A stretch of DNA of 34,311 nt from a virus, in IMG/VR virus record IMGVR_UViG_3300025137_000135, positions 1 to 34,311 of that record; one strand, written 5' to 3'. Made by a program: the position numbers and the translations under genes. Below are positions 9,111 to 17,148 of this stretch, piece after piece; positions within the stretch are counted from its first letter, which is position 1, and every line of letters starts with the position of its first letter. The notes beneath the pieces were generated by a model, which was not told the origin of the DNA, searched no databases, and worked only from the letters and a program-made list of their open reading frames with translations.

Positions 9111-9235
9111 TGGATTGGATTACAGCAGACCTAGTAGAAGCAATTAATAATACATCATGGGTTGATGGTATTGGAACAATTATTATTCTACTTGGTGCAT
9201 ATGCTGGATATAGATGGATTAAGAAAAACTTATGA
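9110..9235 (+). CDS. Small single-TM protein
   Basis: The 41-aa product (MDWITADLVEAINNTSWVDG, then a hydrophobic helix GTIIILLGAYAGY and a basic end WIKKNL) is a typical one-pass mini-membrane protein. It is coupled to both neighbours by overlapping stop/start codons (TAATG and ATGA), which supports it as a real gene. It lies directly before the spanin pair, so a holin or antiholin-like role is a reasonable guess only. Confidence 0.65.
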   Translation: MDWITADLVEAINNTSWVDGIGTIIILLGAYAGYRWIKKNL

Positions 9236-9669
9236 TAAAATTATATGCAATAATTATTTTAGTTGGAATCATCGGTGCAGCTGGTTTGAGTGCTAAGTAT
9301 TACTATGACACAACACAATCAACTATAGCAACATTGCGTGAAAACAATGCAAAATTAGAAGTTGCTGTACAAATTAGTGAAGCAAGTGTTAAGACCCTTG
9401 AAGAAAGTGCATTTATGAATGAAAAACTAAATTCTAAATTACAAAAAGATTTACAACAAGCAGAAAAATATGGAGATGAACTCCGATCTACACTACAAAA
9501 ACATAATCTGACCCACTTAGCAAATAAAAAGCCAGGGCTGATTGAAAAGAGGATGCAAAATGCGACAAATAAGTTATGGGTTGATCTTACTGCTCTCACT
9601 GACAATACTGTCGGGGTGCAGCATGATGAGCAGGTATCTGCCGGAATCGAAAGTAGTAACAGTAACTAA
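9232..9669 (+). CDS. Inner-membrane spanin (Rz-like)
   Basis: The 145-aa product has an N-terminal membrane anchor (about residues 4-20). A periplasmic helix of about 90 residues follows, with many Glu, Lys and Leu in a coiled-coil pattern (TIATLRENNAKLEVAVQISE and following). This is the layout of Rz-type i-spanins, which span the periplasm and fuse inner and outer membranes at lysis together with an o-spanin. A lipoprotein gene begins inside its 3' part in another frame, the classical Rz/Rz1 arrangement. Sequence identity to known spanins is not claimed; the architecture is the evidence. Confidence 0.75.
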   Translation: MIKLYAIIILVGIIGAAGLSAKYYYDTTQSTIATLRENNAKLEVAVQISEASVKTLEESAFMNEKLNSKLQKDLQQAEKYGDELRSTLQKHNLTHLANKKPGLIEKRMQNATNKLWVDLTALTDNTVGVQHDEQVSAGIESSNSN

Positions 9670-9949
9670 TACTGTTAAAACAACTGTTCCAATTGCAACA
9701 CACCCAAAGAAAGTACAACTTAATGATGTAAAAATTTATGTAGTTTCAAAGTTAAACTATGATAAATTTATATTAGATTTTGAAAAAAAGAATGGTGCTG
9801 ATGCATATATTGCTTTGTCTGTAAAAGACTATGAGAATTTAAGTTTAAATTTTTCAGAATTAAGGCGTTATATAGAACAACAAAAACAAATCATTGTTTA
9901 CTATGAGGGTGCTGTAGCACCAACCGCAATAGAGGAAAAGGACAAATGA
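9560..9949 (+). CDS. Outer-membrane spanin lipoprotein (Rz1-like)
   Basis: The ATG is chosen over an in-frame TTG at 9542 because AAGAGG lies at the right distance and a clean signal peptide results. MRQISYGLILLLSLTILSGC has a lipobox ending at Cys20. The first 110 nt overlap the i-spanin gene in another frame. The mature part of about 110 residues is longer than a typical Rz1 and continues well past the overlap, with predicted strand-helix content. It would sit in the outer membrane facing the periplasm and pair with the i-spanin. Confidence 0.75.
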   Translation: MRQISYGLILLLSLTILSGCSMMSRYLPESKVVTVTNTVKTTVPIATHPKKVQLNDVKIYVVSKLNYDKFILDFEKKNGADAYIALSVKDYENLSLNFSELRRYIEQQKQIIVYYEGAVAPTAIEEKDK

Positions 9950-10545
9950 CACAGATTGAATTTACAGACTTTATTTTAGATCAAGCAATTACATGGTGGC
10001 AGTTTACACTTGTTGGTATTTTAATCATTATTGGTAGAATTATTAATTTATTTGATGGAAAAGAAACAGGTAAAAGAATAGGATTTGAATATAAAGAAAT
10101 GCCATACATGACACCTATTGCTATTGCAACAAAGGGTAAAGGGTTTTGGGGTGCAATATGGATGTGGATTACAGGAAGTCGTAATTGGATAATTGCAAAG
10201 GACTTTGTATTTAAGATTAATGGAGTTCAATATGTAATACCTAAAGGCTTTCAATTTGATGGTGCATCTATTCCTAAGTTCTTACATACATGGTTATCTC
10301 CAACAGGAGTTCTATTGATGGGTGGATTAGTTCACGACTATGCATATAAATATGAATCATTAAAGAAAAAATCAAAAGGTGCTAGCGATAAGCTTACACA
10401 AAAAGAATCTGATGTAATCTTCAGAGATATAAACATAGAAAACAATGGATTTAAGTTTATGAACTATCTCGCATATTGGGCATTAAGACTAGGTGGATTC
10501 GTTGCATGGAACGGCCATCGTAAATTAAACGCTAAAATTAAGTAA
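9946..10545 (+). CDS. DUF1353-type phage protein with N-terminal TM
   Basis: The 199-aa product has a membrane segment at about residues 18-34. It is followed by a soluble domain with the hallmarks of the DUF1353 family: YVIPKGFQFDGASIPKF and a downstream LVHDYAYKY motif. DUF1353 proteins are common in phages, often near lysis or tail genes, and have no settled biochemistry. The conserved His-Asp and Asp residues could form a hydrolase or metal site. Its ATGA coupling to the o-spanin gene suggests a lysis-related role, which is an inference from position. Confidence 0.75.
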   Translation: MTQIEFTDFILDQAITWWQFTLVGILIIIGRIINLFDGKETGKRIGFEYKEMPYMTPIAIATKGKGFWGAIWMWITGSRNWIIAKDFVFKINGVQYVIPKGFQFDGASIPKFLHTWLSPTGVLLMGGLVHDYAYKYESLKKKSKGASDKLTQKESDVIFRDINIENNGFKFMNYLAYWALRLGGFVAWNGHRKLNAKIK

Positions 10546-10637: not shown

Positions 10638-10645
10638 TATAAATA
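10638..10645 (+). promoter_or_regulatory. T4-type late promoter (TATAAATA)
   Basis: A perfect TATAAATA lies 19 nt before the ATG of the gene at 10664. No other convincing promoter is seen between here and about 17126, so this element may drive the holin-like genes and the whole curli/cyclase block late in infection. Confidence 0.7.
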
Positions 10646-10663: not shown

Positions 10664-10957
10664 ATGGATATATTTACTTTAGTTTCTGAGGTGGGAGTTC
10701 CAATTGCTGTTGCAGTAGTTATGGGATTTTTTATATTTACAGTATTAAAACAAATACTTGAAGGTATAATTGACCAAATAAAAACTCTAACACATTTCTG
10801 TAAAATGTTAGAAGATCGTGCAAGAGTAGGATGTAATGAGTTAATAAAAATAGACTTATTAGTTAGTTCTGCTTTAGGAGTAACACCCGATATTAATCGT
10901 ATCGCTCGTGCTGAAAACTTCAAAGAAGATGGTAAGCTTGATGTGAGGAGAGATTAA
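10664..10957 (+). CDS. Single-TM protein, holin-like, copy 1
   Basis: The 97-aa product has an N-terminal membrane helix (EVGVPIAVAVVMGFFIFTVL, about residues 9-28). A soluble helical tail with two Cys and a charged end follows. The pattern G-x-P, then A-x-x-MG-x-FI, is shared with the next protein, so the two may be ancient duplicates. The size and topology resemble small single-TM phage holin-like proteins of the BhlA/UviB kind, but no identity to a proven holin is claimed. It is coupled to the next gene by TAATG. Confidence 0.6.
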   Translation: MDIFTLVSEVGVPIAVAVVMGFFIFTVLKQILEGIIDQIKTLTHFCKMLEDRARVGCNELIKIDLLVSSALGVTPDINRIARAENFKEDGKLDVRRD

Positions 10958-11268
10958 TGGAACTTGTTGATAATGGTCTTGATATAGGAACACTTATTGC
11001 TGAGTTTGGGTTTCCAGTTATCATGGCTATCGGTATGGGATATTTTATATATTACATATGGGCATTTATCAGTGATAATATTCAACCAGAGTTAGATGCA
11101 ATGCACATGGCTCTGATAAAATGTATAGATCAAAATCGTATGTTAGATAATGATATGATACGATTACAACAAAAAGTGAATGTTGTTTTAGAGTATAGAG
11201 AAAAAGATAAAATGCAAGACGAAATTAAAGAAAAAATGGAAGTAGAAAAACTACGCAAAAATAAGTGA
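10957..11268 (+). CDS. Single-TM protein with coiled-coil tail, holin-like, copy 2
   Basis: The 103-aa product has a membrane helix at about residues 16-38 (FGFPVIMAIGMGYFIYYIWA). A helical tail ends in a highly charged Lys/Glu segment. Its membrane segment resembles that of the upstream gene product. Two such proteins in tandem after the spanins suggest a holin pair or holin plus regulator. This is an inference from topology and position. Confidence 0.6.
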   Translation: MELVDNGLDIGTLIAEFGFPVIMAIGMGYFIYYIWAFISDNIQPELDAMHMALIKCIDQNRMLDNDMIRLQQKVNVVLEYREKDKMQDEIKEKMEVEKLRKNK

Positions 11269-11280
11269 AAGGAGATAAAA

Positions 11281-11418
11281 ATGATAGATGTAATTTGTAG
11301 TAAATGTGGTTGTCCTTCACATTGTAAAGATGTCTGTACTAAATGTATAGATGGCGACTTATCAAAAAGGCCCGGCACAATTATTTGTGAAAAGTGCCAT
11401 TGCGAAAAATGTAATTGA
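11281..11418 (+). CDS. Cys-rich mini-protein (10 Cys in 45 residues)
   Basis: A clear ribosome site (AAAGGAG) precedes this 45-codon gene. The product, MIDVICSKCGCPSHCKDVCT and so on, has five CxxC or CxC-type clusters, spaced like a double zinc-binding or disulfide-knotted protein. There is no signal peptide, so zinc binding in the cytoplasm is more likely than disulfides. I do not recognise the family. It lies between the holin-like genes and the curli block. Confidence 0.6.
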   Translation: MIDVICSKCGCPSHCKDVCTKCIDGDLSKRPGTIICEKCHCEKCN

Positions 11419-11434: not shown

Positions 11435-11614
11435 ATGAAATTATTTGATAAAATAAAAAAGATGTTTTCACTATATGGTGAACCACCATATGTTAAAAAA
11501 GAAAAAAAGAAAGTAACTAAAGAATGTTGTTGGTCTAAATTAGCTGAGTCATTTACAAAAGATGAATTAGTAAAAGACCACCCTAATTTTATTCAGCCAG
11601 AGAGAAAAAAATAA
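11435..11614 (+). CDS. Small basic protein
   Basis: The 59-aa product (MKLFDKIKKMFSLYGEPPYV onward) is Lys-rich with an amphipathic N-terminal helix, a CCW motif and a C-terminal ELVKDHPNFIQ segment. It fits exactly between the Cys-rich gene and csgF: its stop TAA is immediately followed by the csgF ATG. A weak AAGGA site precedes the start. No known family is recognised. Confidence 0.5.
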   Translation: MKLFDKIKKMFSLYGEPPYVKKEKKKVTKECCWSKLAESFTKDELVKDHPNFIQPERKK

Positions 11615-12079
11615 ATGAACTCTTTTATAAAGTTTTTAATTGTAGTCAATATAATCTTGTTATTTATGTCAATTTCAAAGATTGGTATGGCTGGTGATTT
11701 AACGCACCAATGGGTATCTCCTTCTTTTAGTGGAGTGGGTTATAGTTCTCATGTTCTTACAGTTGAAAACCAAGAACATTCTCGTAAGAAAGCAATTAAA
11801 GAAAAAGAAGAAGCTGCGGTTAGAGAAGCAGAAAGAGATTTAGCAAATACTAATCAGGCAAAATTTATAAAGAATGTAGAATCAAGAATTTATGCTCAAC
11901 TGTCGAAACAACTTGTGGATAGTATGTTTGGAGAAAATTCAAATCAAAATGGAACAGTCACATTTGAGGGTACTACAATCAGTTATGTCAAAGATACAGA
12001 CAATGTAGCATTAACAATATTGGATGCAAATGGAAGTCAAACAGTTATTACAGTTCCTATTGGTGATTTCACTTTTTAG
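11615..12079 (+). CDS. csgF: CsgF-like curli assembly factor
   Basis: The 154-aa product has a signal peptide (residues 1-26, cleavage after GMA). The mature start, GDLTHQWVSPSFSG, corresponds to the E. coli CsgF N-terminus (GTMTFQFRNPNFGG), the part that docks inside the CsgG pore. The C-terminal part (VTFEGTTISYVKDTDNVALT and so on) matches the CsgF beta domain. Between them, residues about 53-85 are a charged helix (KKAIKEKEEAAVREAERD) not present in E. coli CsgF. CsgF is exported and couples CsgG secretion to fibre nucleation. csgG starts inside its 3' end, so the two are translationally linked. Confidence 0.85.
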   Translation: MNSFIKFLIVVNIILLFMSISKIGMAGDLTHQWVSPSFSGVGYSSHVLTVENQEHSRKKAIKEKEEAAVREAERDLANTNQAKFIKNVESRIYAQLSKQLVDSMFGENSNQNGTVTFEGTTISYVKDTDNVALTILDANGSQTVITVPIGDFTF

Positions 12080-12806
12080 TTTAGGTGGTTGTACAACATA
12101 CGAAGTATTTGAACAACCTACAACTGCACCAATGATGAACAAGTTACAAAATTATCGACCCCCCGAAAGGAAGGTTGAGATTGCTGTTTACAAATTTAAT
12201 GACCAAACAGGACAAAGAAAACCAAGTGATAGCCTTGCATCATTAAGTACAGCAGTCACACAGGGAGCTGCCTCATTATTAGTTCAAGCACTTAAAGGTG
12301 CGGGCAATGGTAAATGGTTTACTGTTGTTGAAAGAATGGATTTGGATTATCTTTTAAAAGAAAGACAAATTATTAGAAACACAAGAACAACTTATGATGG
12401 AGAAAAGGCAGAACAAGTTAAACCTTTATTGTTTGCTGGTGTTCTCATAAGTGGTGGTATCATCGGTTACGACACCAACATAGAAACAGGTGGTGTTGGT
12501 TCGAGATATTTGGGTATAGGTATTCGTGACCAATATCGTAGAGATATAGTATCGGTTTCATTACGATTAATATCTGTACAAACTGGTGAAGTATTACTTG
12601 CGGTAAGTTCGCAAAAAACTATATTAAGTACTAAAGTTGGTATGAATGTGTTCAAGTTTTTAGATATGGGTACTGAGTTGATTGAAATTGAAGCTGGAAC
12701 AACTGAAAATGAATCAACAACTTATGCGATTCGTAAAGCAATAGAACATGGAGTAAACCAAGTAATTGAAAGGGGAATAGAAAATGGATTGTGGAAACTA
12801 AAATAG
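12024..12806 (+). CDS. csgG: CsgG-like curli secretion pore lipoprotein
   Basis: The 260-aa product has a lipoprotein signal ending SLFSLGGC (Cys23). It then follows CsgG closely: IAVYKFNDQTGQRKPSD, STAVTQGAASLLVQAL, WFTVVERMDLDYLLKERQII, then GGIIGYDTNIETGGVGSRYL and a C-terminal IERGIENGLWKL. CsgG forms a nonameric 36-strand outer-membrane barrel that exports curlin subunits. The constriction segment of E. coli (YPASNF, with Tyr51, Asn55 and Phe56) is replaced here by SDSLASL, one residue longer and without aromatics. The start overlaps csgF by 56 nt; a second Met two codons on would also work. Confidence 0.92.
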   Translation: MQMEVKQLLQFLLVISLFSLGGCTTYEVFEQPTTAPMMNKLQNYRPPERKVEIAVYKFNDQTGQRKPSDSLASLSTAVTQGAASLLVQALKGAGNGKWFTVVERMDLDYLLKERQIIRNTRTTYDGEKAEQVKPLLFAGVLISGGIIGYDTNIETGGVGSRYLGIGIRDQYRRDIVSVSLRLISVQTGEVLLAVSSQKTILSTKVGMNVFKFLDMGTELIEIEAGTTENESTTYAIRKAIEHGVNQVIERGIENGLWKLK

Positions 12807-12816
12807 GAGAAAGAAA

Positions 12817-13500
12817 ATGAAAATTAGCATACTTACAGTTCTCGCTTATTTTGTTATGATGAGTGTGAGTTATGCGAGTGATGTTTACATCACACAGTCT
12901 GGTGCAAACCTTACTGCTAATGTTAATCAAGATGGCCAAACGAACAAATTTGGTGACTCAACAACAGCAGTTACTTTGACAGGAGATGCCCAGACTTTAG
13001 ATATTGACCAAGTTGGTAGCAACAATACTATTGCTGCATCTGTTGTGGGTGATACACAAGAAGTTACTCTTAACCAAACAGGAAATAGTAACACATCTAC
13101 TCTTTCAGTTGGATCAAGTTCGGCATCTGATAATAACAGTATCATTCAAACAATTACTGGAAGTTCAAACACAACTACTGTTAATGTGGGTAATTCTGCA
13201 TCGGTTGATGATGCAAATATTGATTTGGTTGCAACAGGAGATAGTAATACTGTTACTATTAATGAAAATAGTACTGCATCAATGATAGGTGATGACAAAA
13301 AAGTAACAAGTGTCACTCTAATTGGTAGTAGCAACACAGTAACTTCGACACACACTGGTGCTGCCGATCAAGACACAACCCTACATCATACAGGTGCATC
13401 TAGTACATTTAGTATCACACAAGGTGGTGCTCATGATGGCACTGTTAATATGACAACTGTGGGGTCTGGCCATAATGTTACAGTTACTATGGACGATTAG
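12817..13500 (+). CDS. Curlin-repeat amyloid subunit (CsgA/CsgB-like)
   Basis: The 227-aa product has a signal peptide (1-20, ending SYA) and then a Ser/Thr/Asn/Gln/Gly-rich region. Its repeats follow the curlin pattern of alternating strand residues, Q-x-G and N: VYITQSGANLTANVNQDGQ, LDIDQVGSNNTIAAS, VTLNQTGNSNTSTLS. Later repeats are more degenerate (GSSNTTTVN, GDSNTVTIN, GSSNTVTST). It lacks Cys and charged patches. Such proteins are secreted through CsgG and stack as beta-solenoid amyloid. A good ribosome site (AGGAGAAAG) suggests strong expression. It could be the main fibre subunit or a nucleator. Confidence 0.85.
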   Translation: MKISILTVLAYFVMMSVSYASDVYITQSGANLTANVNQDGQTNKFGDSTTAVTLTGDAQTLDIDQVGSNNTIAASVVGDTQEVTLNQTGNSNTSTLSVGSSSASDNNSIIQTITGSSNTTTVNVGNSASVDDANIDLVATGDSNTVTINENSTASMIGDDKKVTSVTLIGSSNTVTSTHTGAADQDTTLHHTGASSTFSITQGGAHDGTVNMTTVGSGHNVTVTMDD

Positions 13501-14545
13501 CTTTGTCTTTTTGTTTTCTGTCAACATGGTGTTGGCAGAAACTATTGGTAATGTAGTAAAACAAAAAGGAAATGCTTCGATAGAAAGGGCAAAAAATAAA
13601 CTTGTTTTAAAAGAAAACTCTGCTATTGAATACAAAGATAATGTCCGTACAGGTAATGGTGATGTTGGAATAAAATTTGTTGACAATACAAATGTAGCAA
13701 TAAGTCCACACAGTTCATTAGTAATAGATGATTTTGTATATGACCCAAATTCTAAAACAGGGTCTAAACTTGTAATGAATGTCGCATTAGGAACAGTTAG
13801 ATATGCAAGTGGTAACATTGCAAAACTAAATGCACAGAATGTTGATATTCGCACTCCAACAGCACGAATAGGTGTTCTTGGAACTGCTTTCAGTATGACT
13901 GTTGATGAGGTTGGAAAATCTCTTGTCATTCTACTTCCCAATGCAGATGGAACAGTTGGTAAGATATCAGTAGAAAGTGATGCAGGACAGGTTTTTCTCA
14001 CCCAAGCATTTGAATCCACATTAGTTATAAATGGTGAATCCACTCCATCAAAGCCAGTTATACTTGATTTAACCCTAGACCAAATTAACAACTTATTAAT
14101 TATTAAACCACCCAAAGAAAAACTTTTAAAAATAATTAAAAGTTCTAAAATTACAATAAATTTATTAGACATAGATTTTTTAGAATTTAGAGAATTAGAC
14201 AAAAATAAATTAGACGAAGATGAATTGGTTTTTACTGAACTAGATATCAATCCTTTAGATGTTGATTTACTAATGAATGTACTAGACCAATTAATCGCAC
14301 TAACCGCTCAAAGTGAAATGGTAGATGGTAGAACAAGCGGCTTCAACAAAGCAACTCAAGTCAATACGATTCGTGATGGTTCTCGACTTGAAATAATTCG
14401 TGCAGTTGGAAGTAGTAATATTCACTTAAAATTAAATGCAGATTGGGGATACAGAATTAATTTAACACAACAGGGTATCCCAGTACCAGAGATAACATCA
14501 GATGACGAAACTGACAACACTATTATTATCTATCAGTCTGAGTAG
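13475..14545 (+). CDS. FecR-domain periplasmic protein with leucine pentads
   Basis: The 356-aa product has a signal peptide (1-21, ending VLA). A FecR-type domain spans about residues 45-150, with NVRTGNGDVGIKFVDNTNVA, LVMNVALGTVRYASG and TPTARIGVLGTAFSM. Residues 231-266 carry Leu every fifth position (eight in a row), like a pentapeptide-repeat solenoid. The C-terminal part (GSSNIHLKL, INLTQQG) looks curlin-like. FecR-domain proteins are known to sit beside CHASE2 cyclases in bacteria, where they are thought to be periplasmic sensors or partners. The gene starts 26 nt inside the curlin gene, with no clear ribosome site of its own. Confidence 0.82.
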   Translation: MLQLLWTISFVFLFSVNMVLAETIGNVVKQKGNASIERAKNKLVLKENSAIEYKDNVRTGNGDVGIKFVDNTNVAISPHSSLVIDDFVYDPNSKTGSKLVMNVALGTVRYASGNIAKLNAQNVDIRTPTARIGVLGTAFSMTVDEVGKSLVILLPNADGTVGKISVESDAGQVFLTQAFESTLVINGESTPSKPVILDLTLDQINNLLIIKPPKEKLLKIIKSSKITINLLDIDFLEFRELDKNKLDEDELVFTELDINPLDVDLLMNVLDQLIALTAQSEMVDGRTSGFNKATQVNTIRDGSRLEIIRAVGSSNIHLKLNADWGYRINLTQQGIPVPEITSDDETDNTIIIYQSE

Positions 14546-15299
14546 TATTGTATACGCTGAAAACAGTGTGTTCATAGAACAGATTACTACCAGTGATGAT
14601 ACAACGATAAGCATCAATCAAGATGGCAACAACAATGATGTCAACTTGTCTATGGCTCACGATGATAACACACTTGATTTTAATCAAGTAGGAAATAATA
14701 ATACAATTAGTTGGGTATCTTATTTTGGTTCTGGTAAAGTTTGGGGTGGTGATATAGATGGTACAAATAACACTCTTAAATTTGAACAGTATAATACCAC
14801 AGGTTCAGACTCCAACAGAATAGGGTTTCATATGCCGGGCAATAATAACCAGCTTCATGTTTGTCAAGGTGCTACATTTTCTAGTAGCACAGACACAACT
14901 TGTTCTGGTTCTACACCCAACTCTGAATATGGTGGTCATATAGTTAACCTTGATGTACATGCAAATAGTAATAGTATAAAAATAGGACAAGAAACAGGAA
15001 CAGCTAATGCTGACCACTATGCACAAATATATTATTATGGAGGTGATAATAACAGTACATTTCTTACACAGAAAGGAAATGGAAATAAGGACTTGAGAAT
15101 GAACATAAGAACAGATGGTGGATCACAAGAAGTTATGCAAAGTGGTGATGGGGGGCATACTGCTACTGTTAATCTGTATGGTTCGTATCATACTGATTTA
15201 TCATTAACACAACAAGGAAGTACAGCACAGGCTTACTCTATTACACAGACCTGTCAAACATCTGGTGGTTGTGGTGTATCCTTGACACAAGGAAATTAA
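14502..15299 (+). CDS. Second curlin-like secreted protein, Cys-containing
   Basis: The 265-aa product has a signal peptide (1-19, ending VYA). Curlin-type units follow: ISINQDGNNNDVNLS, LDFNQVGNNNTISW, GTNNTLKFEQY, PGNNNQLHVCQG, NSNSIKIGQETG, GNGNKDLRMN and LSLTQQGSTAQAYS. Units are separated by longer aromatic spacers (SWVSYFGSGKVWGG, HYAQIYYYGG). Unlike classical curlins it has four Cys in two pairs, at about the middle and at the C-terminus. It starts 44 nt inside fecR. It may be a minor subunit, nucleator or adhesive tip of the fibre built from the first curlin. Confidence 0.82.
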   Translation: MTKLTTLLLSISLSSIVYAENSVFIEQITTSDDTTISINQDGNNNDVNLSMAHDDNTLDFNQVGNNNTISWVSYFGSGKVWGGDIDGTNNTLKFEQYNTTGSDSNRIGFHMPGNNNQLHVCQGATFSSSTDTTCSGSTPNSEYGGHIVNLDVHANSNSIKIGQETGTANADHYAQIYYYGGDNNSTFLTQKGNGNKDLRMNIRTDGGSQEVMQSGDGGHTATVNLYGSYHTDLSLTQQGSTAQAYSITQTCQTSGGCGVSLTQGN

Positions 15300-15300
15300 A

Positions 15301-17148
15301 ATGAAAAAGTGGATCATCTCTTTATCAGTAATTTTATTTTTTTGTGGTATTCGTTTTTCTGATGTTTGGTTTTTGGAAATGGTAAGATTAAAAGCACTAG
15401 ACCAACATCAAAGATCCCAACAAGAAACAATCACAGACAAGATTGTGACAGTAGAAATAGATAATGATTCTGTAAGAGAATATGGTCAATGGCCTTGGGC
15501 AAGAGATAAACTTGCAGGGGATATTGAAAATCTATATCGCAGGGGTGCTGCAATTGTTGTATTACCCATATTGTTTGCAGACAAAGATAGATTAGGTGGT
15601 GATGCACAATTTGATGAGATGTTAAGAAAAACTCCAACCATCATAGGACAAATCCCAGCAAATCAAACTAAAGGAAATCCTGTACCCAGAGGTGTTGCCG
15701 CGATAGGTATGCCTTGGCAACAATGGATATACAATTATAGTGGTGCAGTCGGCCCCATAGAACCATTTTCAAAATCTGCAATAGGTGTTGGTATGATGCT
15801 TATTGCTCCAGAGAATGATGGTGTGGTTCGTAGGATGCCTTTGGTGATTCAAATAGATGGACAACTGTATCCATCTCTGTCTATGGAGATACTAAGAACA
15901 GCTGCTGGAGATATTAGTTATCAGATGAAAACTGGTGAGGGTGGTGTGGAAGCATTACGCATACCAAAATACAAAAAGATACTGACTGATGCGAATGGTG
16001 CTATTTGGATTGATTTCAAATGGAAAACAAAAACCTATGCACTAAACAAATTAACAGACAATGATTCATTCGTAGGAAAGATTGTTATTCTTTCACCAAC
16101 TGCATCTGGTATAGATAATCCAGTTGCAACCCCAGTAGGAGTCATTCAAAGTCACGATTTGATCGCTGCCTCTGTGACAACCATGATGACAGGAAGGAAC
16201 ATCACAAGACCCTTCTGGACTGATTTAGCAGAGCTTTCAGTGTCTTTAGTGTTATCACTAGTACTGACAGTAGTCGTGCTTACACTAAGTTGGTACTTTG
16301 GTGCAATACTATTACCAGTATTTCTTGCAGGAACTTATTATGGTAGTTTACACTTATTTACAGAATATAGTTATCTGGTTGATTGGTCGTATCCTGTATT
16401 AACTATGTTTGTCGTTTGGTCTGTAGCTGCATTTCTGCGGTTCATGGAAGAATTTAGATTACGACAACAGATTAAGAAACAGTTTGAACATTACCTTGAC
16501 CCAAGACAGGTTGCTGCTTTACAGAAAAATCCAGAGGCATTGAAACTTGGTGGTGAACGCAAAGAGATGAGTTTTCTCTTTATGGACATTATAGGTTTCA
16601 CACCTATATCAGAATACTATAAGAACAAAGATGACCCAGAAGGATTAGTTGAATTAGTCAATGAGTTTTTAGATCACATGACTAAAATCTTACTAAACAA
16701 CGGAGCTATGATTGATAAGTTTATGGGTGATTGTATCATGGCAGTATTCAATGCACCGATTGATATGGAGAATCATGCTGAGATGGCAGTCAAAAGTGCA
16801 ATAGAGATTGAAGCAAAGACAAAAGAACTGAAAGTATTATATAAAGAAAGAGGCCTTCCCGACATTAATGTTGGTACAGGTGTAAACACAGGTACAGCAA
16901 TTGTTGGTAATATGGGTAGTTCCACTCGTTTTGACTTTTCAGTTATTGGTGATGCAGTTAATCTTGCGGCACGATTAGAAGCAACAGCAGGGAGAGGAGA
17001 GTTTAAAAACTGTCCTACTCTATATTCGAGTCACACAATGATACAACTAGAGAATATTACATCAATTGAGGTAGACAAGATTAAAGTCAAGGGTAAAGAT
17101 GAATTAATAACAATATATAAACCTATTGACAATATCGTAAATACATAG
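15301..17148 (+). CDS. CHASE2-domain class III adenylate cyclase
   Basis: The 615-aa membrane protein has an N-terminal TM (about 3-20), a CHASE2 extracytoplasmic sensor (about 40-290, with VTVEIDNDSVREYGQWPWAR), three TM helices (about 310-385) and a cytoplasmic catalytic domain (about 420-610). All expected class III residues are visible: metal-binding Asp429 (FMDIIGFT) and Asp477, adenine-selecting Lys473 with Ser547 in the Asp/Thr position, and transition-state Asn554 and Arg558 (GDAVNLAARLE). So it is predicted to make cAMP and to form an active homodimer. It follows the second curlin gene by one base and ends the block. Such an enzyme is highly unusual in a phage. Confidence 0.92.
   Translation: MKKWIISLSVILFFCGIRFSDVWFLEMVRLKALDQHQRSQQETITDKIVTVEIDNDSVREYGQWPWARDKLAGDIENLYRRGAAIVVLPILFADKDRLGGDAQFDEMLRKTPTIIGQIPANQTKGNPVPRGVAAIGMPWQQWIYNYSGAVGPIEPFSKSAIGVGMMLIAPENDGVVRRMPLVIQIDGQLYPSLSMEILRTAAGDISYQMKTGEGGVEALRIPKYKKILTDANGAIWIDFKWKTKTYALNKLTDNDSFVGKIVILSPTASGIDNPVATPVGVIQSHDLIAASVTTMMTGRNITRPFWTDLAELSVSLVLSLVLTVVVLTLSWYFGAILLPVFLAGTYYGSLHLFTEYSYLVDWSYPVLTMFVVWSVAAFLRFMEEFRLRQQIKKQFEHYLDPRQVAALQKNPEALKLGGERKEMSFLFMDIIGFTPISEYYKNKDDPEGLVELVNEFLDHMTKILLNNGAMIDKFMGDCIMAVFNAPIDMENHAEMAVKSAIEIEAKTKELKVLYKERGLPDINVGTGVNTGTAIVGNMGSSTRFDFSVIGDAVNLAARLEATAGRGEFKNCPTLYSSHTMIQLENITSIEVDKIKVKGKDELITIYKPIDNIVNT

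Follow-up and report, generated by a model that had tools for sequence, protein, structure and literature searches.

Why would a marine phage carry genes for curli secretion, joined to genes for a FecR-domain protein and a membrane-bound nucleotide cyclase? This question is raised by the virus record IMGVR_UViG_3300025137_000135, all 34,311 bases of which were analysed (here called the window). A first-pass annotation, made from the letters of the window alone, had pointed to six adjacent forward-strand genes at positions 11615–17148, encoding CsgF, CsgG, a curlin-repeat protein (Cur1), a FecR-domain protein, a second curlin-like protein (Cur2) and a CHASE2-class III cyclase. The window was found to be a further member of a curli module already published for marine phages, and eight genes, not six, make up the module, as two genes for small membrane proteins, m97 and m103, belong to it. 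The reading favoured here, with a probability of about 0.52, is that the module is expressed late and exports curlins, with FecR and CHASE2 linked in the periplasm, and, more tentatively, that the phage benefits late in infection and outside the cell. Several kilobases in phages of highly abundant ocean bacteria are devoted to exporting fibres and to a cyclase, both of which the hosts reportedly lack or were seen here to lack. The late motif, the eight-gene membership and the possible contact of FecR with the fibre replace a loose account of 'auxiliary genes' with claims that can be tested.

An eight-gene module in marine phages

The first gene of the operon, m97 (positions 10664..10957; ~97 residues), and its adjacent paralogue m103 (10957..11268; ~103 residues) each encode a small protein with one transmembrane (TM) region and a charged tail; both were assigned to phrog_18771 and, like all genes of the operon, lie on the forward strand. 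A T4-type late-promoter motif, TATAAATA, is located 26 nt before m97 on the same strand (10638..10645). The genes that follow encode CsgF (11615..12079; PF10614, 5.7e-18; signal peptide by eye), the outer-membrane curli export pore lipoprotein CsgG (12024..12806; PF03783, 1.9e-57; LGGC lipobox-like motif by eye), the curlin-repeat protein Cur1 (12817..13500; PF07012, 8.5e-4, below the cut-off), a periplasmic FecR-domain protein with a curlin-like C-terminal strand (13475..14545; PF04773, 1.7e-7), the second curlin-like protein Cur2 (14502..15299), which has a homologue at the same place in relatives, and the CHASE2-class III nucleotide cyclase (15301..17148; PF05226 (CHASE2), 7.7e-39; PF00211 (Guanylate_cyc), 2.5e-18). 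The last six open reading frames (ORFs) are tightly packed: neighbours overlap by 56, 26 and 44 nt, and just 1 nt separates the cyclase gene from the one before it. They are real and fall in the families first proposed, according to Pfam, though Cur2 could be placed via its relatives only. The first-pass annotation gave all six intact signal peptides or TM segments; a simple hydropathy scan found an N-terminal hydrophobic or TM segment in every protein except Cur2, for which a signal peptide was apparent by eye.

Viral contigs were scanned with CsgG as query (the best 80 of 122 matches being kept) and with FecR (the best 80 of 176, which gave 79 distinct loci). With two phage records and the copy in the window itself added, there were 161 loci, which fell into 81 clusters at 95% DNA identity; podophage and myophage loci are pooled in all counts. 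In the 43 clusters that were well flanked (at least 2.5 kb before and at least 6.5 kb after CsgG-FecR), CsgF, CsgG, Cur1, FecR and the cyclase were present in all 43, m103 in 42, m97 in 41 and Cur2 in 33, though the presence of CsgG and FecR is partly due to selection as both were queries. The full order m97-m103-CsgF-CsgG-Cur1-FecR-Cur2-cyclase was seen in 30 of the 43, and the cyclase gene was on the opposite strand in three. The search for the six-gene order thus showed that related phages carry the block, as csgF-csgG-curlin-fecR-(curlin)-cyclase. The gene for primase is downstream of the block in the window and upstream of it in four loci (L010, L013, L015 and L016) with FecR proteins 83–84% identical to that of the window; as the module is placed differently in the genomes of close relatives, it is kept as a unit. 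The ratio of nonsynonymous to synonymous substitution rates (dN/dS), calculated with our own Nei-Gojobori script, was 0.08–0.27 for all eight genes against L017, L015 and L010, indicating that all eight are maintained as proteins by purifying selection; the block is not due to chance. In the comparison with L099, five of the eight genes had a saturated dS.

Only seven of 50,697 phage records matched the window CsgG, four of them for Melnitz, two for HTVC008M and one a 1.5-kb 'Salmonella phage' record. HTVC008M encodes CsgF, CsgG, a curlin protein, two unnamed proteins and a cyclase, and the unnamed proteins match the FecR (45%) and Cur2 (30%) proteins of the window. The gene order is the same in Melnitz, whose annotation names FecR and both curlin-repeat proteins. 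The gene set and order of the window are therefore those of the pelagiphage type VIII secretion module (HTVC008M, Melnitz; PMC9599517, PMC7029224), in which CsgE is likewise undetected. A curli operon and the idea that it serves to capture siblings were described by Zaragoza-Solas 2020 (PMC7029224), and csgG has been listed among phage-borne genes (PMC7003362). The first-pass annotation was right that curli-type genes had been reported in SAR11 myophages (HTVC008M; PMC7029224). The order with FecR, a second curlin and an adenylate cyclase was reported in both podophages and myophages by Wittmers 2022, who also found the module expressed in metatranscriptomes (PMC9599517). Hence, the union of a phage curli set with FecR and a CHASE2 cyclase is real, but it is not new, the full set with the cyclase having been published. 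For Melnitz, csgA and csgB were stated to be missing (PMC9004378); the GenBank record (accession number MZ577097.1; L002) is at odds with that text, as it lists two curlin-repeat proteins and FecR. In the available text of the module literature, neither the membership of m97 and m103 nor the late motif ahead of m97 is described, and the same applies to the curlin-like tail of FecR, the chromosomal counterparts of the module and the rarity of a receptor for cyclic AMP (cAMP) in likely hosts.

A scan of viral contigs with m97 as query returned 34 loci, and CsgG was present in 34 of 34. In the phage collection, m97 and m103 each matched only the four Melnitz and two HTVC008M records, all of which bear the module. 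In podophages, a short histidine kinase, 'sometimes two', has been stated to precede CsgF (PMC9599517), whereas two TM proteins of ~95 amino acids (aa) occupy that place in the loci examined here. No kinase domain was detected in the 28 m97/m103 proteins scanned, and their Pfam matches were weak and scattered; an identity as a histidine kinase or a holin found no support, the commonest matches, to TM140 (6/28, best 0.008) and YvrJ (5/28, best 0.099), being taken as chance. HATPase_c was found in none of the 12 module-bearing virus records searched (control 14/14), of which several are fragments and none is listed under the name of a podophage from PMC9599517. We suspect that the published short 'histidine kinase' genes and m97/m103 are the same genes. 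Two tiny ORFs were noticed by eye between m103 and CsgF, one Cys-rich and of 45 aa (11281–11418) and the other of 59 aa (11435–11614).

Late-promoter motif and timing

A T4-like late promoter, TATAAAT, was used in the study of Melnitz, where 15 late promoters were found (Buchholz 2022, PMC9004378); the text on these promoters makes no statement on the curli genes. Late-promoter detection had failed in these phages in the study of Zaragoza-Solas 2020 (PMC7029224). Here, 27 of 69 deduplicated clusters have TATAAATA in the 100 bp ahead of m97 (~0.8 expected), and 8 of 65 have it in the 100 bp ahead of CsgF (~0.8 expected). The motif was rare or absent before the other genes, with 0/63 for m103, 0/59 for CsgG, 1/77 for Cur1, 0/74 for FecR, 0/58 for Cur2 and 3/63 for the cyclase. 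When 56 arrangements of the letters of the motif were compared, the next best after TATAAATA reached 12 of 69, and 143 sites were on the module strand of the loci versus 15 on the other. In the window alone the motif count is at chance level (4 versus 4.39 expected), and the case for a late promoter is thus a comparative one.

In the HTVC008M genome, 20 copies of the motif are on one strand and a single copy is on the other. Among 63 hand-picked gene starts, from a record of 198 features, it lies within 100 bp before 11, including those of CsgF, the gene preceding m97, the DNA end protector, two baseplate wedge genes, the tail sheath and the portal. Genes for DNA polymerase, clamp, clamp loader, helicase, primase and ribonucleotide reductase are without it, the exceptions to this division being the single-strand binding protein gene, which has the motif, and several structural genes, those for the major capsid protein and large terminase among them, which do not. 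In HTVC008M (L359–L361), TATAAATA begins exactly 13 nt ahead of the start codon of CsgF and of four other checked genes. This spacing would presumably give leaderless late mRNAs, if transcription starts as in T4.

Late expression also bears on the role in lysis that Buchholz 2022 proposed for Melnitz (PMC9004378), according to which CsgG/CsgF, perhaps with m97/m103, would be a gated pore that helps to trigger or time lysis. Besides the late-promoter motif, the one-TM architecture of the small m97 and m103 proteins, with their weak, non-significant YvrJ resemblance, and the presence of an Rz-like spanin gene ~1 kb upstream in the window are consistent with such a role. However, it leaves two curlin-like proteins, FecR and the cyclase unexplained, though all are under purifying selection, CsgG is an outer-membrane channel and not an inner-membrane holin, and the neighbours of the module differ among relatives. 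A role in lysis timing is therefore unlikely, though it deserves some weight.

Superinfection exclusion is expected early, whereas many copies of the operon have the late-gene motif, and the motif thus argues against an early block of superinfection, which had been among the roles first suggested for the locus. A coat of curlin fibres that masks the receptors of the infected cell, as proposed in PMC9599517, would be consistent with a fibre product but, given this timing, is distinctly unlikely.

Curlins, FecR protein and cyclase

Residues 12–259 of the window CsgG match the solved Escherichia coli CsgG at 1.3e-48, and CsgF was identified by Pfam only, no CsgF structure being matched at E≤1. 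Cur1 scored 19.7 bits against Curlin_rpt, slightly under the 20.7 cut-off, and 22 of 44 members of its family match Curlin_rpt (PF07012) at E≤0.01. The AlphaFold model of Cur1 is a beta-strand ladder with a predicted local distance difference test (pLDDT) score of 83 and a predicted template modelling (pTM) score of 0.81. The window Cur2 gave no Curlin_rpt match, and only MelC1 at 0.0077, under the family cut-off; 19 of 30 aligned members of the Cur2 family match Curlin_rpt at E≤0.01 (best 1.5e-10). Of the expectation that the proteins fold as curli components, the part concerning CsgG and FecR was borne out, as both show the expected family and fold, but the curlin model has no significant structural match. 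We infer that the phage curlins form a surface amyloid. Two Cys residues near the C-terminus of Cur2 (positions 251 and 257) are invariant in 30 of 30 aligned members.

In E. coli, curli are encoded by the csgBAC and csgDEFG operons. CsgG, CsgF and curlin repeats are common to that system and the phage module, whereas the phage module is without a detected CsgE and has FecR and the cyclase in addition. CsgC and CsgD are reported to be absent from the phage module (PMC9599517), and CsgE, an accessory protein in E. coli, is noted not to be essential (PMC7029224). CsgE (PF10627) was found in none of 14 records and genomes searched, the control matching in E. coli, and its absence would be consistent with an open CsgG pore that brings in cofactors or iron compounds for replication, as proposed in PMC7029224 and PMC9599517. 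However, the curlin-like proteins and CsgF are retained, and late expression leaves a metabolic benefit little time, making such an uptake channel very unlikely. A CsgG match was also obtained in a 1.5-kb record with no annotation, 'Salmonella phage S.Kent 1-2-1' (GenBank accession number OR851715.1), which is perhaps a host curli fragment.

A classical FecR anti-sigma factor has a cytoplasmic anti-sigma domain and a partner sigma factor. The window FecR does not have this layout, as it starts with a signal-peptide-like helix followed by a periplasmic domain, and no sigma factor was found among the ten proteins in and around the block that were scanned with Pfam. In the predicted model (mean pLDDT 77.7, pTM 0.53), residues 52–211 match the periplasmic signalling domain of PupR (6ovk_R; Z 15.4, 137 residues, 2.7 A), the linker is poorly predicted and the C-terminal strands have pLDDT values of 72–87. 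The last strand has alternating hydrophobic residues and ends in Gln (hxhxQ), like curlin repeats. Of 71 phage FecR rows, 67 have this motif in their last 14 residues (66 of 70 when only distinct rows are counted), compared with a mean of 5.6 and a largest value of 11 in 200 shuffles. Among bacterial FecR ORFs, taken from 89 loci with no CsgG or CsgF match, it was found in 6 of the 70 that were complete; in the module curlins it is found in 49/76 and 44/52. Such a tail points to contact between FecR and curlin, probably by docking on the subunits or at the base of the fibre. A further resemblance of FecR, to the anchoring domain of an adhesin (5ix9; profile E 0.0034; Z 7.3), makes an anchoring role possible.

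There are bacterial FecR genes that adjoin CHASE2 genes (PMC5498481, PMC5192318), a precedent that the first-pass annotation also cited. In Sinorhizobium meliloti, the FecR protein SMc02177 is paired with the CHASE2 cyclase CyaD1, and the gene for the cAMP-dependent regulator Clr adjoins the pair (PMC5498481); in Burkholderia, FecR and a CHASE2 kinase form an operon (PMC5192318). The phage module likewise places an extracytoplasmic FecR protein beside a CHASE2 receptor, but unlike the phage module, neither bacterial system is linked to curli genes in the available text of these papers. A FecR-domain protein of 514 aa (PF04773, 3.2e-10) is encoded beside a SlipAM-like protein at positions 10001–11545 of L216, from the genome G003, with no curli genes in that stretch.

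In the cyclase, the metal-binding Asp429 and Asp477, Lys473 and an Arg are conserved in 56 of 56 aligned rows and an Asn in 46 of 56, and the window protein has them all. We take the two Asp to bind metal, the Lys to contact the purine, and the Asn and Arg to stabilise the transition state. To judge from these residues, the cyclase looks active. Rows with Ser in place of the Asn, ten in number and all from phages, have other altered motif residues too, as if another type of cyclase had been swapped in. The catalytic domain also matches Pycsar cyclase models (best 4.2e-19), raising the question of whether it acts against Pycsar-like immunity. That match reflects the shared class III fold, and the CHASE2 receptor architecture and the setting in a curli operon speak against an anti-defence role, which is extremely unlikely.

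The family of G003, the genome behind a Pelagibacteraceae-titled record, is the likely host family. Only 2 of 60 genomes from this family, of unstated completeness, gave a match to the cAMP-type receptor domain PF00027 (control 10/14); the 12 module-bearing virus records searched, the window among them and several being fragments, gave none. The coupling to second-messenger signalling proposed in the first-pass annotation therefore stands as far as the conserved catalytic residues are concerned, but not on the receptor side. PF00211 was also found in 2 of the 60 genomes, in both cases in a phage module with m97/m103, one of them beside terminase and portal genes. Module contigs are present in SAR11-family or Pelagibacter-titled bins (L355, from G788; L356, from G823; and L205), a weak hint of the host.

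Bacterial counterparts, mechanism and phage context

Contigs of bacterial genomes were scanned with a FecR alignment, and the best 80 of 122 relatives were examined. Seven (L196, L197 and L200–L204) are module stretches with m97/m103 in environmental bins, one (L205) is a 3-kb piece with CsgF, CsgG, a curlin and FecR, and 70 have no CsgG match within the fetched stretch. The remaining two, L198 and L199, from Caulobacteraceae-titled bins, have csgF-csgG-curlin-fecR-cyclase without m97/m103, and L198 is surrounded by genes for an amidohydrolase, an acyl-CoA dehydrogenase and a methylmalonyl-CoA mutase. CsgF was present in 42 of 398 genomes of the order of G001, the genome of L198. Stretches of 10–16 kb from 20 of the 42 were examined, G001 itself and the other 21 being left out, and G397 (705-kb contig; locus L330) was found to have the form with FecR and cyclase, while the other 19 show neither gene in the stretch. 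Three bacterial genomes, those of L198, L199 and L330, thus have chromosomal csgF-csgG-curlin-fecR-cyclase operons. FecR and the cyclase do occur in bacterial curli operons, apparently rarely, contrary to the abstract of PMC9599517.

The cellular operons share the core order of the phage module, and the curlin-like tail of FecR in two of three, but differ from it in having a longer cyclase and in the number and size of the curlins. Genes for m97/m103 were not found in 200 genomes of the order of G001; as a control, the profile found two copies in each of six module-bearing records and none in G001, G397 or G003. In a CsgG tree, in which the bacteria sampled were of the order Caulobacterales only and 4 of 19 were dropped by a length and match filter, 28 phage and FecR-cyclase-linked cellular rows were separated from 15 others of that order with a Shimodaira-Hasegawa-like approximate likelihood ratio test (SH-aLRT) value of 100. 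In a cyclase tree covering several phyla, the phage and cellular module cyclases group at 93, below the 95 mark. In both trees the three cellular copies fall within the phage group, with SH-aLRT values of 85–94 only. The shared core and the grouping in both trees count in favour of the late exporter with a FecR-CHASE2 link, and the cellular operons are relatives in which FecR-CHASE2 control of curli could be studied.

Further points in favour of the late exporter are the conserved order of the module, the purifying selection on its genes, the late motif, the FecR tail, the PupR fold and the bacterial precedent for FecR genes beside CHASE2 genes. After the switch to late transcription, one operon starting with m97 and m103 would be made. 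By homology, CsgG and CsgF would form an outer-membrane channel that exports Cur1 and Cur2, which would build a surface amyloid. FecR, with a signal peptide apparent by eye and a predicted PupR-like domain, would be periplasmic, may dock via its tail on curlin subunits or the base of the fibre, and, by analogy with bacterial FecR-CHASE2 gene pairs, may report the state of the curlin to the periplasmic CHASE2 domain. The cyclase, with its conserved catalytic residues, is predicted to make a cyclic nucleotide in the cytoplasm. The benefit might, more tentatively, be that siblings or progeny are held near new hosts. A self-contained, trans-envelope amyloid machine with feedback is an unlikely elaboration; in it, FecR would cap or gate CsgG through its tail in place of CsgE and signal fibre export to the CHASE2 cyclase, whose product would be a phage-private messenger, in a host with no known receptor for it, that acts late to time export with lysis.

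Several observations weigh against a late exporter of this kind. Melnitz cultures were without clumping under the conditions used (PMC9004378). No exact motif is present within 100 bp before m97 or CsgF in 33 of the 61 loci with both starts, and HTVC008M has the motif ahead of CsgF and of the gene that comes before m97, but has none ahead of m97. The Cur1 model has no Protein Data Bank match at E≤0.001, the CsgA fibril reaching just E 2.3, and CsgE was absent throughout the search described above. The cellular FecR of L330 is without the curlin-like tail. The FecR gene beside the CHASE2 cyclase gene of S. meliloti is dispensable for signal perception (PMC5498481), which speaks against FecR as a sensor. 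Ser replaces the transition-state Asn in 10 of 56 cyclase rows, and the scarcity of PF00027 in likely-host genomes leaves the signalling branch without a known outlet.

The window is, from its gene content, a fragment of a T4-like marine phage, with T4-type genes for primase, ribonucleotide reductase subunits, single-strand binding protein and PhoH. The best matches of its primase are in Pelagibacter phage Mosig (47.8%), Methylophilales phage Melnitz (46.3%) and HTVC008M (44.4%), and those of its ribonucleotide reductase are in phage C48C1 (74.6%) and Melnitz (64.2%). From relatives of the phage, we infer a SAR11-type host. A tRNA-Thr was of little use as a host clue, as its best SAR11-family matches were just 82–84% over 55–57 bases and unrelated phages reached ~90%. 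This tRNA was all that an Rfam scan of the window found, and scans for sigma-70 promoters (28 versus 34.7 expected) and terminators (4 versus 3.1) were at or near chance.

Upstream of the operon, the Rz-like spanin gene (9232–9669; phrog_739, 3.5e-12) is followed by a DUF1353 gene (9946–10545), which borders the block on one side; a short coiled-coil gene and then the primase gene are on the other. The possibility that the contig is a chimera of host and phage DNA, raised in the first-pass annotation, was ruled out, as phage genes are present on both sides of the block and other contigs have the same junctions. DUF1353, coiled-coil and primase genes flank the block at 81–92% identity in the contigs of L007, L008, L017 and L164, and at 100% identity in that of L004.

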